A stretch of DNA of 64,000 bases from Lysinibacillus fusiformis (GTDB taxonomy: Bacteria > Bacillota > Bacilli > Bacillales_A > Planococcaceae), in NCBI RefSeq assembly GCF_007362955.1, contig NZ_CP041696.1, positions 2,790,001 to 2,854,000 on the forward strand, written 5' to 3'. A program made the position numbers and the translations under genes. This document shows positions 24,006 to 28,765 of this stretch, in pieces. Positions within the stretch are counted from its first letter, which is position 1. The number at the start of each line of letters is the position of its first letter. The notes under the pieces were generated by a model. The model did no database searches. It saw only the letters and a list, made by a program, of their open reading frames with translations, and was not told where the DNA came from.

Positions 24006-25805
24006 TTATTTTGATTTGTTAGCTGTTTTTAATAATTCTTTTACTTTTTCACTGTCTGCTTCAAGTTTTAATCCTGTATTTACTAAAGGAGAAACGGTTG
24101 AAACCGCAGGCTTCTTATTGCCTTGGTAGTAGCTGATGAATTCATCTTGGTTAATGGAGTAAAGAATCGCTTTACGTAAATCTGCTGAATCAGATACAGC
24201 ACGGCCAGATGTATTCATTTGCAAATATGCTACTGCATTACTATCAGCAGTATTTAAAGTTAATTTTGCATCGGACTTTACAATATCCAGCTTTGTTTCT
24301 GGTACTGTTTGAAGAACATGAATTTCACCATTCCGTAAAGCTGATAGAGCACTATCATTATCTGCAATAAATCGAACGTTGATTTTAGCAATTTTTGGTT
24401 CATACTCACTGCCTACACGATAGGCAGGGTTTTTCACAAATTGCGCTTCATAATCATTTTTTTGGATAAGAATGTAAGGGCCACTTGCAAATAGCTGGTT
24501 ATTGTATGTTGCAGTACCTTCAGTGATTGTTGCTTGATCGCCATATGCGATATCTTTATCAGGGTTATAGTTTGCTACGTCATATGTGTTAATGCTTTTT
24601 ACTTGTTTTTCAGAAACGATACCACCAGATTGATGTGCTAAGTAGTTTAATACTTGCGGGAATGGTGTTGGTGTTGTAATTTTCACCACTTGATAAGCAC
24701 CAGAAGCATTTTTTACTGCACCTTTATCTTTCACTAATTGTGCTACAGAAGAAGGTAAATTTTGAGATAATACATCCAAAATAGATTTGTCAGAGCCTGC
24801 CACTTTTTTATTTTGTAGTTCTGTTAAGTCTGTAACGGCCTCTACAGTTTCAATGTTTTCATGAATACTATAAGTACGATGGTCTGGTACTGAATTAGCA
24901 TCTTTTGCACGATTTAAGGAGAACACAACATCTTCAGCCGAAACTAATTCACCAGTATCAACTGCAGCTCCGTCCTTTACGGCTGCAAAATGAATATCAT
25001 CACGTAAAATAAAGTAGTATTCTTGGTTTCCTTCCGCAATAGCATGGTTATATGATAAAGAGCCATCTGAAACAACTTCATCCGTATCCGTTAAGTTGAC
25101 AAGTCGAACATACATATTTGTATTAAGTGTGTTAATGGAACCATCATTGCCTTTAATAGGGTCAAGAGATGTTAATGAATCAAGTGTTTGATGTAAACTT
25201 AATGTTTCTGTTGAATTTAAGGATGCATCATTAAATTCTATGTTCTCCCATACTTGGGCACGTGATTTTGGCAAAAGTACAGATTTTGGATTGACTAATT
25301 CAGAATAAATTCCTTGATATTTATTGGAAATGTATAGTGGTGCAATATATGCTTGATCGAATACTAATAGTTCTTCTAATTCTTTATATTTGGCTACTGC
25401 TTCATCGCCCGTTAAAGTACTTGCCTCATCAATCAAAGCATCTAAATTTGAGTCGGCAACAACACTATAGTCACCGCCCGTTTTGAATAAACCACGTACA
25501 GCATAGTCTGGATTTCCAGTTACTGTTGTCCAGCTAGAAAGAGCAATATCGTAGTTGCCAGCTTCTTTTTGCGCTGAAAATGATCCATAATCAGGTTGAA
25601 TGTTTAGCTTCACATCAAAGCCATTTTTTACTAGTTGATCACGCACAATATTCATATCTTCCTCTGAAGCGGCCGTACCTAATAGTTCAATTGTCGATTT
25701 ATCATCGCTTTTATCGTCTTTACCGCCCTCTACATCTGTTTTTGTTTGTACGCAACCTGCTAATGCTAAAACTACGATGGCTAAAAATAATAGTAATTTT
25801 TTCAT
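24006..25805 (-). CDS. Peptide/nickel-type ABC solute-binding lipoprotein, circularly permuted
   Basis: 599 residues with a lipoprotein signal ending LALAGC. It belongs to the SBP_bac_5 (OppA/DppA/NikA) family, but the order of the parts is altered. Residues about 38-190 (IELLGTAASEEDMNIVRDQL, DVKLNIQPDYGSF, DIALSSWTTVTGNPDYAVRG, AYIAPLYISNKYQG) correspond to the C-terminal third of normal family members. Residues about 203-599 (LHQTLDSLTSLDPIKGND, YFILRDDIHF, SAEDVVFSLNRAKD, DLRKAILYSINQDEF, ending EKVKELLKTA) correspond to the N-terminal two thirds. It is the last gene of a divergent importer operon with two permeases. Ligand unknown. Confidence 0.9.
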   Translation of the reverse strand: MKKLLLFLAIVVLALAGCVQTKTDVEGGKDDKSDDKSTIELLGTAASEEDMNIVRDQLVKNGFDVKLNIQPDYGSFSAQKEAGNYDIALSSWTTVTGNPDYAVRGLFKTGGDYSVVADSNLDALIDEASTLTGDEAVAKYKELEELLVFDQAYIAPLYISNKYQGIYSELVNPKSVLLPKSRAQVWENIEFNDASLNSTETLSLHQTLDSLTSLDPIKGNDGSINTLNTNMYVRLVNLTDTDEVVSDGSLSYNHAIAEGNQEYYFILRDDIHFAAVKDGAAVDTGELVSAEDVVFSLNRAKDANSVPDHRTYSIHENIETVEAVTDLTELQNKKVAGSDKSILDVLSQNLPSSVAQLVKDKGAVKNASGAYQVVKITTPTPFPQVLNYLAHQSGGIVSEKQVKSINTYDVANYNPDKDIAYGDQATITEGTATYNNQLFASGPYILIQKNDYEAQFVKNPAYRVGSEYEPKIAKINVRFIADNDSALSALRNGEIHVLQTVPETKLDIVKSDAKLTLNTADSNAVAYLQMNTSGRAVSDSADLRKAILYSINQDEFISYYQGNKKPAVSTVSPLVNTGLKLEADSEKVKELLKTANKSK

Positions 25806-25824: not shown

Positions 25825-27321
25825 CTAATTTGTTTTTGGATCTAAAGCATCTCGTAAACCATCGCCAAAGAAGTTAAAGGACAGGACGAGAAGCATAATA
25901 CAAAGACCTGGGAAAATAGCGACATAGGAATGTGTTTCCAGGTACGTACTACCAACCTTTAAAATGTTACCCCATTCTGGAATATGCGGCTCAATGCCAA
26001 GCCCTAAAAAACTTAAACTACTTGTTGAAATCACTGCACCACCAATTGTTAATGTTGCTTTGACAATCATCGGTGCTAAAGCGTTAGGAACAATATGTTT
26101 AAAGATAATCGCTGCATCAGAAGCTCCAAGAGCCCTAGCTGATTCAACAAATTCATAATTCGAAAGCTGCATCACATTTGCACGCATCGTGCGCGCATAG
26201 GTAGGGATTGCCCCAACACTTAGTGCGATGATTAAATTAACGGTATTTGCACCAAAAGCGGCAATTATGGCAATGGCAAGTAATATTCCAGGAATCGCAT
26301 ACAAAATATCTAGACTGCGCATGATGATGTTATCTGTCGCTTTGCCATAATAGCCAGAAAACGCACCGAGAGCTCCCCCAACTAGTGCTGGAATAACCGT
26401 TGAGAAAAATCCAACGATTAACGAAATTTGAGCACCGAAAACGATACGAGAAAATAAATCACGGCCATAATTATCAGTTCCAAGAGGGTACTCCAATGAA
26501 GGTGTTTGCAACAATGCCTCATAATTATTTTTAGTTGCAAAGTCGTAATCGAAAGTCCAAGAACTTGTCACAGATAATGAAAAGATAAAGACGATGAAAA
26601 ATAAGCCAAATACGGCCATCGTGTTGCGTAAAATCTTTTGCCACATTTTTTGCCATTTTTCAATGGCGGATGGATTCAATTTTCTAGCTTTTTGAATAAG
26701 GCTAAATCCTAGCAAAGTTGCAAATAGATTACCTGTAAAGGAGGCAATGAGCAGCAAGATACCAGGCACGAGCATCCATTTAGGGGCCTCCTTTGCAGTA
26801 ACGAATTTTGTACATAGGAATAGCATCACAATATAAAACAAAGCAAGTATTAAAAATAACCCCATTGCAAGGAGAAATGTATCTGTTACATAGGATTTAA
26901 ATAAATTCAAAGCTGAAATACCGATTATAAATAGCTGAGTCATAAACGCATAGGCTGCAAAAGTATATTCAACTGTCTTTGTTTTTGACACGAGCATAAA
27001 AGCAAAAGAGACTGCGAAAATATTGCCTGAAGCAATAGTCAACAATAACGGATAACCAAGCAAACGAGTTCCTTTTTGTATATCACCAAACTTGGCTAAA
27101 TCTTTCTTTATACGTAATGTCAGGTAACCAACATAAACGGTCGTTATTAAATAAGTAAAGAAAAATAGTAAAATGATAGGTCGCCAACTCTGGCTAGAAA
27201 AATTGTAGCTATAAGCTAGAAATAATAAAGAAAACAGTAAGGAAAAGACAAATGTAAAATGTGCATTGACATATTCCTGTGTAATTTTCAAAAGTAGTTT
27301 GACATGCATGATCGTTTTCAC
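25825..27321 (-). CDS. OppC/DppC-type ABC permease with an extra N-terminal membrane domain
   Basis: 498 residues, well above the roughly 300 usual for this family. The C-terminal 280 residues are a standard permease: PLGTDNYGRDLFSRIVFGAQISL, then the EAA loop ESARALGASDAAIIFKHIVPNALAPM, then SSLSFLGLGIEPHIPEWG. The first 210 residues contain about six additional hydrophobic segments of no recognised family. It follows the OppB-like gene by 13 bases and precedes the binding-protein gene by 19, so the three form one operon. Confidence 0.9.
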   Translation of the reverse strand: MKTIMHVKLLLKITQEYVNAHFTFVFSLLFSLLFLAYSYNFSSQSWRPIILLFFFTYLITTVYVGYLTLRIKKDLAKFGDIQKGTRLLGYPLLLTIASGNIFAVSFAFMLVSKTKTVEYTFAAYAFMTQLFIIGISALNLFKSYVTDTFLLAMGLFLILALFYIVMLFLCTKFVTAKEAPKWMLVPGILLLIASFTGNLFATLLGFSLIQKARKLNPSAIEKWQKMWQKILRNTMAVFGLFFIVFIFSLSVTSSWTFDYDFATKNNYEALLQTPSLEYPLGTDNYGRDLFSRIVFGAQISLIVGFFSTVIPALVGGALGAFSGYYGKATDNIIMRSLDILYAIPGILLAIAIIAAFGANTVNLIIALSVGAIPTYARTMRANVMQLSNYEFVESARALGASDAAIIFKHIVPNALAPMIVKATLTIGGAVISTSSLSFLGLGIEPHIPEWGNILKVGSTYLETHSYVAIFPGLCIMLLVLSFNFFGDGLRDALDPKTN

Positions 27322-27334
27322 AGATGCTCCCCCT

Positions 27335-28765
27335 TTAAGACTTCTTCATTTTCGAACGAATACGTGGATCGAAAAAGGCATACAGAATATCGATCAACAA
27401 ATTGACAATAGAAATAGTAATGGCAATATAGACGACGCCACCAAGAATAGCTGGAATATCAGGTATAAATTGCTTATCAACGATATAGCTGCCAATTCCA
27501 TTAATATTGAAGACTTTCTCTGTAACTGAAGCCCCTCCTAACATTCCTCCGAAGAGTAATCCAATCACCGTGATAATAGGAATCATGGCATTGCGTATTG
27601 CATGTTTTGTAATCACTTTATATTCATTTAGACCCTTTGCTTTAGCAGTAATAATATAGTCTTCATGAATAACCTCGAGCATACTTGACCTTGTCATCCT
27701 GGCGATGGATGCCGTAATAGAAGTACCCAAGACAACGACAGGCATCAATAGTGATAGCCAGTTTTGTGGATTATACGTGGCTGGTAACCATTGTAGCTTT
27801 AACGCGAAAGTTAAAATGAATATCAAACCTTGCCAAAAGCTTGGAATCGATAATCCAATTAGAGCAATAAACATGAATGTGTAATCTAAGTACGAATTTG
27901 GACGGACTGCTGAAATAATTCCGACTGGAATTGCAATGGCAATAGCCATTAACAGCGATAATAGGGCAATTTCAAGCGTGATAGGAAATTTATTTGCGAT
28001 GCTATGTGTAATATCTTCTTTCCCAGCAAATGATGTGCCCAAATCAAATGTGAATAACCCAGAAAGTGCATGCCATAGTTGTGATAAATAGGATTGATCT
28101 AAGCCATAAATACGATTAAAATTTGCAACTTGATCAGGCGTTGCCTCAACTCCTAGCAAGTTTCTCGCTGGGTCAAATGGTGACAAATATAAAATTGTAA
28201 AAACGAGTGTGGCAACACCAACAATTACGATGAAGCTTTGTAAAATCCGTTCAATAACAAATTGTAGAAATGGATTCGCAAACAATAGTAGCAATACATA
28301 AAATAAAATTGCTGGTATAAACGTGATGGCTATAAATTTTTGTTTTTTCAGTTGCTGTCCAAAAAACTGTAGATAGGATTGATCAACGTGGCCTTCATTG
28401 GCTAAATCTTTCTCTACTATTCGCTTGAGTTTTGCGTCTGCTAAAGAAGTAGCGGATGATTGTAACTGCTGTTTAGACATAGTTTCATTGAAAAACTGTG
28501 CCTTGGCCTGTTCTTGTTGTGCAAATGCAACTTGCCACTGTCTATAGGACCCATTTACTTTGTAGTACTGACATTGTTGCTCAAACCTTTGCTTGTATAT
28601 ATGCGGATCTTTTCTTTTCCGATAAAAGAAATATGTAAATGGATGTACCAAGATACTAAAAAGAAAGAGTAACAACGTATAGGATCGGTGATGCATAAGC
28701 TTTTGATAAACCGTAAAAAAGAAATCATGCTCCTTTGTTGTTGAATGATTTTTTGAAATAACCAT
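27335..28765 (-). CDS. OppB/DppB-type ABC permease with an N-terminal extension
   Basis: 476 residues. The C-terminal 310 residues are an OppB-type permease: VFTILYLSPFDPARNLLG, NRIYGLDQSYLSQL, FPITLEIALLSLLMA, and the EAA loop ITAKAKGLNEYKVITKHAIRNAMIP. The first 160 residues hold one or two hydrophobic segments and a Gln/Lys-rich, probably coiled-coil cytosolic part (FAQQEQAKAQFFNETMSKQQ) not found in standard OppB. First gene of the operon; it is transcribed away from the fused ATPase gene, with a 120-bp shared promoter region between them. Confidence 0.9.
   Translation of the reverse strand: MVISKNHSTTKEHDFFFTVYQKLMHHRSYTLLLFLFSILVHPFTYFFYRKRKDPHIYKQRFEQQCQYYKVNGSYRQWQVAFAQQEQAKAQFFNETMSKQQLQSSATSLADAKLKRIVEKDLANEGHVDQSYLQFFGQQLKKQKFIAITFIPAILFYVLLLLFANPFLQFVIERILQSFIVIVGVATLVFTILYLSPFDPARNLLGVEATPDQVANFNRIYGLDQSYLSQLWHALSGLFTFDLGTSFAGKEDITHSIANKFPITLEIALLSLLMAIAIAIPVGIISAVRPNSYLDYTFMFIALIGLSIPSFWQGLIFILTFALKLQWLPATYNPQNWLSLLMPVVVLGTSITASIARMTRSSMLEVIHEDYIITAKAKGLNEYKVITKHAIRNAMIPIITVIGLLFGGMLGGASVTEKVFNINGIGSYIVDKQFIPDIPAILGGVVYIAITISIVNLLIDILYAFFDPRIRSKMKKS

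Follow-up and report, generated by a model that had tools for sequence, protein, structure and literature searches.

In Staphylococcus aureus, GisABCD-Ggt has been described as a glutathione importer; transposon mutants in five Gis/Ggt genes grew poorly on GSH or GSSG, and a deletion mutant took up less GSSG (PMC10355420). Complete systems were reported only in the S. aureus-related cluster, by a homology search that kept only Ggt-containing genomes, and Lysinibacillus is among the genera said to encode Ggt homologues; the main text holds no word beginning with 'permut' (PMC10355420). Natural circular permutation has been described for a different type of binding protein, TpMglB-2 (Tp0684) of Treponema, a permuted cluster B protein for which a 'Type Ic / cluster Bc' was proposed and for which its authors suggested tethering as the driver of permutation (PMC4990184). 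For the OppA/DppA class (cluster C), we found no report of natural circular permutation in open-licence PubMed Central, yet such a permutation is kept across many Bacillota. Two further sources were searched by term: the main text of a preprint on circular permutants contains none of six binding-protein terms looked for, and a 2018 paper on GsiB yielded no contact residues.

The window, which is the whole stretch of 64,000 nucleotides analysed here (Lysinibacillus fusiformis, NZ_CP041696.1, positions 2,790,001 to 2,854,000), contains a minus-strand open frame at 24006-25805 that translates into a protein of 599 aa with a signal peptide and an LAGC lipobox (Table 1). SBP_bac_5 is the sole Pfam family of this protein at E up to 1, and a score of 144.3 bits against a cut-off of 32.4 places it in SBP_bac_5, or cluster C. 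The family matches in two stretches. In the search of its own genome, Pfam profile positions 276-366 lie at the N-terminal side of the protein (E 2.6e-7) and positions 12-283 at the C-terminal side (E 8.6e-34).

Table 1. Parts of the permuted binding protein and of its importer operon, in window coordinates.
Feature	Position	Strand	Basis
Signal peptide and lipobox, residues 1-18 (...ALAGC), lipid-anchor Cys18	25752..25805	(-)	translation; alignment; canonical profile
Variable polar linker from anchor Cys to fold, residues 19-37	25695..25751	(-)	indels among 19 rows
C-terminal lobe segment of SBP_bac_5 protein, placed first, residues 38-193	25227..25694	(-)	hmm 393-527 at 47-174; Pfam 276-366; hhalign 94%
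Short junction of old C-terminus and old N-terminus, about residues 194-202, presumed limits	25200..25226	(-)	residues 185-215 indel-free
N-terminal two thirds of SBP_bac_5 protein, placed last, residues 203-599 and stop	24006..25199	(-)	hmm 43-363 at 197-595; Pfam 12-278 at 256-597
OppC/DppC-type permease core	25825..26676	(-)	BPD_transp_1 and OppC_N
OppC-type permease N-terminal extension, about 215 aa, six hydrophobic segments	26677..27321	(-)	no Pfam match over cut-off; alignment, segment count
OppB/DppB-type permease core	27335..28270	(-)	BPD_transp_1 and BPD_transp_1_N
OppB-type permease N-terminal extension, about 165 aa, a polar stretch flanked by two hydrophobic segments	28271..28765	(-)	no Pfam match; alignment, segments
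Divergent fused double ATPase, DppD-DppF type, 579 aa	28886..30625	(+)	two ABC_tran and two oligo_HPY stretches

A profile of 12 canonical solute-binding proteins (SBPs; eight from the window's genome, two from G114 and one each from G563 and G564) resolves this arrangement. Residues 3-36 correspond to profile positions 6-41 (a weak match, 6.3 bits), residues 47-174 to 393-527 (i-E 1.7e-10) and residues 197-595 to 43-363 (i-E 4.4e-33). The pieces are complementary and without overlap, and along the protein they run 6-41, 393-527, 43-363; both SBP_bac_5 lobes are present and the canonical linear order is not. The protein is a permuted variant of SBP_bac_5, or cluster C, homologous to the canonical members without being one of them. 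The missing canonical columns, 364-392, would be the loop in which the new termini lie. All 16 of the permuted proteins examined place the C-lobe first on this profile, and each of the 12 canonical proteins gives one linear match, the profile having been built from those same 12.

Alignment of profiles with hhalign points the same way. Residues 36-196 fall on canonical columns 394-515, within the C-lobe (94%, E 1.3e-7), and residues 197-599 on columns 56-366; the final 100 residues map to columns 268-366, which are not C-lobe columns. The two outcomes that would have refuted the initial annotation, a front segment that fails to match the C-terminal lobe and a second full C-lobe at the end, were looked for here and not seen. 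A search of the PDB returned 29 matches, and the five alignments examined each consist of three pieces in permuted order. In Lmo0135 (5isu), for example, protein residues 273-328 align to chain residues 76-132, 435-570 to 171-302, and 33-166 to 338-474.

We also rotated the protein in silico, re-reading the mature sequence in steps of five residues and scoring each version against the canonical profile. Starts at residues 174-209 give the best single-domain score, about 130 bits compared with 101 for the native start (residue 19). Within this range there is a dip at a cut at 194, with only 110 bits, where the match is apparently split. A staphylococcal-type relative (L125) rises under rotation to 115 bits from 82 in its native order. 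As a control, six canonical proteins out of the 12 were rotated in steps of 20, each against a profile built without it; the natural start was best in four, and in the other two the best start lay 4 (L090) and 22 residues (L093) before it around the circle, with gains of a bit or less.

The same order, looked for in related genomes, recurs widely. Within the genus, 24 of 32 genomes, the window's own included, hold a protein collinear with the query (E up to 1e-20), and within the family it is found in 62 of 151 genomes and 11 of 19 genera, with no internal stops. The class sample gave 35 matches among 398 genomes at E 1e-25, own included: 11 in the window's family, 18 in family f2 (genomes of 5.4-7.6 Mb), three in f146 and three in f158. 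These are 34 full-length proteins and one fragment (G873). In the phylum sample, 4 of 398 genomes matched at E 1e-60, own included, and in the class of the Tissierella genome there were matches in 2 of 391, one of them a fragment. Across these samples, the permuted form is frequent within the window's family and a part of f2, and seldom met outside Bacilli. The G873 fragment is an isolated stretch of a permuted protein, 215 aa long (L128 9186-9833), with the other transporter genes absent alongside.

A scan of genome contigs collected 24 loci whose binding proteins are 57-93% identical to that of the window. They come from Lysinibacillus, Ureibacillus, Metasolibacillus, Bacillus ndiopicus, Tetzosporium, Chryseomicrobium, a Tissierella and a MAG named Negativibacillus; NCBI taxonomy assigns Lysinibacillus to Bacilli, Tissierella to Tissierellia and Negativibacillus to Bacillota incertae sedis. 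A Metabacillus plasmid carries the operon too. Mean column identity is 81% in an alignment of 18 locus proteins with the window's (19 rows), and many residues are invariant, G17 and C18 of the lipobox among them. In all 19 rows residues 185-215, around the junction, are free of indels, whereas the anchor linker varies: the stretch at residues 19-40 is 20-32 residues long, with indels.

A tree of 16 permuted and 12 canonical proteins was calculated from the two segments aligned separately and then concatenated. The permuted and canonical proteins are split with a support of 1.000 in the concatenated, the N-only and the C-only trees, and a single origin of the permutation would be the simplest reading. 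When the canonical side is taken as the root, the long-branched staphylococcal-type pair splits off first. The Tissierella and Negativibacillus proteins group with that of L129, a genome of the window's class (0.977 concatenated, 0.934 C-only; not grouped in the N-only tree), and L129 shares with these partners separate ATPases and the order B-C-ATPase-ATPase-SBP. This is tentatively suggestive of transfer between Bacilli and Tissierella/Negativibacillus.

Two readings would dispense with a permutation altogether. The front 200 residues might be a separate C-lobe-like domain joined to a truncated SBP, the two pieces being unrelated. The front segment does match strongly only with profiles; single-sequence comparison is weak (5isu, for instance, gives 11.5 bits), and taken by itself its Pfam stretch reaches 31.4 bits, short of the cut-off of 32.4, which was set for whole proteins. 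Against this, the pieces complement each other on the canonical profile, the only good match of the segment is to C-lobe columns, and either segment alone gives the same split in the tree, which makes an unrelated front domain very improbable. Nor do we give any real credence to an assembly or annotation artefact, or to a decaying rearranged gene: one S. aureus record among the relatives (L096, NZ_CP077929.1) does hold the transporter genes twice, in inverted arrangement and with broken frames, by its looks an assembly artefact, but the same intact order and the many invariant residues recur from genome to genome. No duplicate C-lobe, internal repeat or remnant was found at E up to 10 in the protein and within about 600 bases on either side. 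On the evidence of recurrence, alignment, profile and tree, we reject the artefact, pseudogene, duplicated C-lobe and unrelated-domain readings.

ATPase, B, C and permuted SBP stand together in 24 of the 24 loci from the contig scan, as in a cluster C operon. The genes flanking the operon differ between lineages among the loci examined. Both permeases carry N-terminal extensions (Table 1). That of the OppC-type protein had no PDB match at E up to 1. Its two halves, cut at 116, align to each other over 96 columns (hhalign 96%, E 7e-9), with cuts at 120 and 124 giving only 41 columns, and the extension is probably a duplicated three-segment unit, as read from this alignment. In the C protein of L125, the extension counts no more than three hydrophobic segments. 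An OppC-type permease of Tissierella lies in two frames (L049 2408-3924) with part of the extension split off, either a sequencing error or a real split.

The OppC extension and the permuted SBP also travel together. The extension is found in 63 of the 151 family genomes, including all 62 with the permuted SBP, and in each of these 62 the two features share a contig and are a few kilobases apart at most, judged by eye from the coordinates. G114 is the exception: its divergent ATPase and extended B and C (L083 6373-10837) have no SBP adjoining, and elsewhere in the genome the SBP profile meets nothing better than weak, partial matches. In the phylum samples (398 and 396 genomes), SBP and OppC extension are both present in the same four genomes. 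The OppC-extension profile was built from these operons, such that distant extensions elsewhere may be missed, and the OppB extension was seen in fetched loci only.

The permuted cluster C form appears to include the experimentally studied glutathione importer. The SBP of the S. aureus record L096, a match from a plasmid-collection search, also begins with the C-lobe. Moreover, three genomes of f146/g290 have divergent ATPase, B, C and a full-length permuted SBP followed by a gamma-glutamyltranspeptidase-like gene, which is PF01019 in the two of three that were scanned (L125 and L127). Their binding proteins match at positions 2-595, 2-595 and 1-595 of 601 with 537-569 bits, in the same permuted order. 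The L096 ATPase is 78% and its partial SBP 74% identical to those of L125. From this identity and the gene order, we infer that g290 is Staphylococcus, that the S. aureus locus is SAUSA300_0200-0203 and that the f146/g290 proteins belong to the GisD lineage.

The window protein is 38-41% identical to the staphylococcal-type members. PF01019 was not found in the window's genome at E 0.001, in a search that found it in 8 of 14 control genomes, and Ggt presence in Lysinibacillus may vary between species. Since the published search required Ggt, genomes like the window's, without PF01019, would be missed by it.

What the importer carries is more finely balanced. The initial annotation had called the binding protein peptide/nickel-type, and the nickel part is not supported: no NCBIfam binding-protein model comes near its cut-off (NikA 45.4 of 393, Opp5A/NikA 42.5 of 600), nickel binding has no support in these scores, and the closest characterised relatives point to ligands of the glutathione/dipeptide type. 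The equivalogs GsiB (47.1 of 594), SapA (64.5 of 560) and Opp4A (26.5 of 650) likewise stay under their cut-offs. The best PDB matches of the permuted-protein profile include YliB (GsiB) and heme-binding protein A, which we take to bind glutathione disulfide as well. Because the protein shares a clade with GisD-type proteins, its most likely ligand would be glutathione or glutathione disulfide, or else another small peptide of similar kind (gamma-glutamyl or cysteinyl), and we put the chance of a glutathione-like ligand at about even. Next after the permuted SBP in Tissierella lies a gene of the SDH_alpha family (L049 7880-9220), presumably of a kind able to act on serine or cysteine, which may fit serine/cysteine catabolism.

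With a slightly lower probability, not quite even, the permuted protein is real and binds something else in most Bacilli, such as an oligopeptide, an opine or a metal chelate, glutathione being special to the staphylococcal branch. The lack of Ggt and an identity of about 40% to that branch agree with such a division, as does the finding that no shared metabolic neighbour was seen in the loci examined. The common operon design and the clade shared with GisD-type proteins speak against it, as does the SDH_alpha gene next to the SBP in Tissierella.

Setting the ligand apart, we consider it very probable that the window protein is the once-permuted, then kept, lipid-anchored binding subunit of a peptide-type (cluster C) ABC importer, for which a glutathione-like ligand is proposed. 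The gene would have been circularly permuted once in a common ancestor and kept thereafter, with the old N- and C-termini joined by the short junction. In OppA both termini are part of domain I, a position in which a short junction would suffice to connect them. The 'VKELLK' helix is followed by the loop that would hold the new termini (canonical profile 363/393), and the lipid anchor would in consequence sit on the C-terminal lobe and no longer on the N-terminal lobe. The outside-facing subunit, with a predicted OppA/DppA-like fold, would enclose its ligand and pass it to the OppB/OppC-type pair, with the fused ATPase supplying the drive. The profile, rotation, conservation and synteny tests bear out the permuted order that the initial annotation had read from the sequence, and support its view of an intact frame, a complete importer operon and a probable function. 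The wide sharing of the arrangement by a large clade and the conserved permease extensions go beyond that annotation. Its phrase 'after duplication and trimming' describes a putative origin, by tandem duplication; within some 600 bases of flank on each side no remnant was found.

We hypothesize, as a tentative proposal that we hold for possible and still rather doubtful, that these loci represent a distinct importer architecture. In it, the binding protein would have its anchor on the other lobe, and the permeases would have gained membrane modules (C with six segments, B with two that flank a polar stretch) working with the re-anchored protein, for example by holding it in a docking orientation. 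GisABCD would then represent a single branch of a 'cluster C, permuted' class that is wide and has gone unrecognised. The tight link between SBP and extended permease offers a natural test of anchor position and membrane domains in ABC import. In permuted binding proteins, linear comparison misplaces residues; the remark that the sequences of GisD and GsiB indicate different recognition (PMC10355420) deserves re-examination with the order corrected.

Compared with known systems, the window protein shares with the cluster C proteins OppA, DppA, GsiB and HbpA both lobes, the lipobox and the cognate permease types, and differs in the permuted order of its segments and, putatively, in an anchor on the other lobe. 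Like TpMglB-2, it is a naturally circularly permuted, tethered binding protein of an ABC importer, and Gram-positive homologs exist (PMC4990184). TpMglB-2, however, has the sugar-binding fold of cluster B, and there the first strands were transferred to the end, whereas in the cluster C protein the last third has moved to the front (PMC4990184 for TpMglB-2). Cluster Bc membership was rejected by sequence, SBP_bac_5 being the only Pfam family, and the best PDB matches are by name dipeptide-, murein-peptide-, heme- and YliB-type binding proteins; we saw no hint that the two permutations share an origin. The nearest counterpart is GisD of S. aureus. It differs in the ggt gene after the SBP, which has no equivalent in the window's genome, in an identity of 38-41% between the window protein and the staphylococcal-type relatives, and in an OppC extension with three hydrophobic segments (L125), and it resembles the window protein, as far as the partial S. 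aureus sequence reaches, in its permuted order, divergent fused ATPase, B-C-D gene order, lipobox and N-terminally extended permeases.
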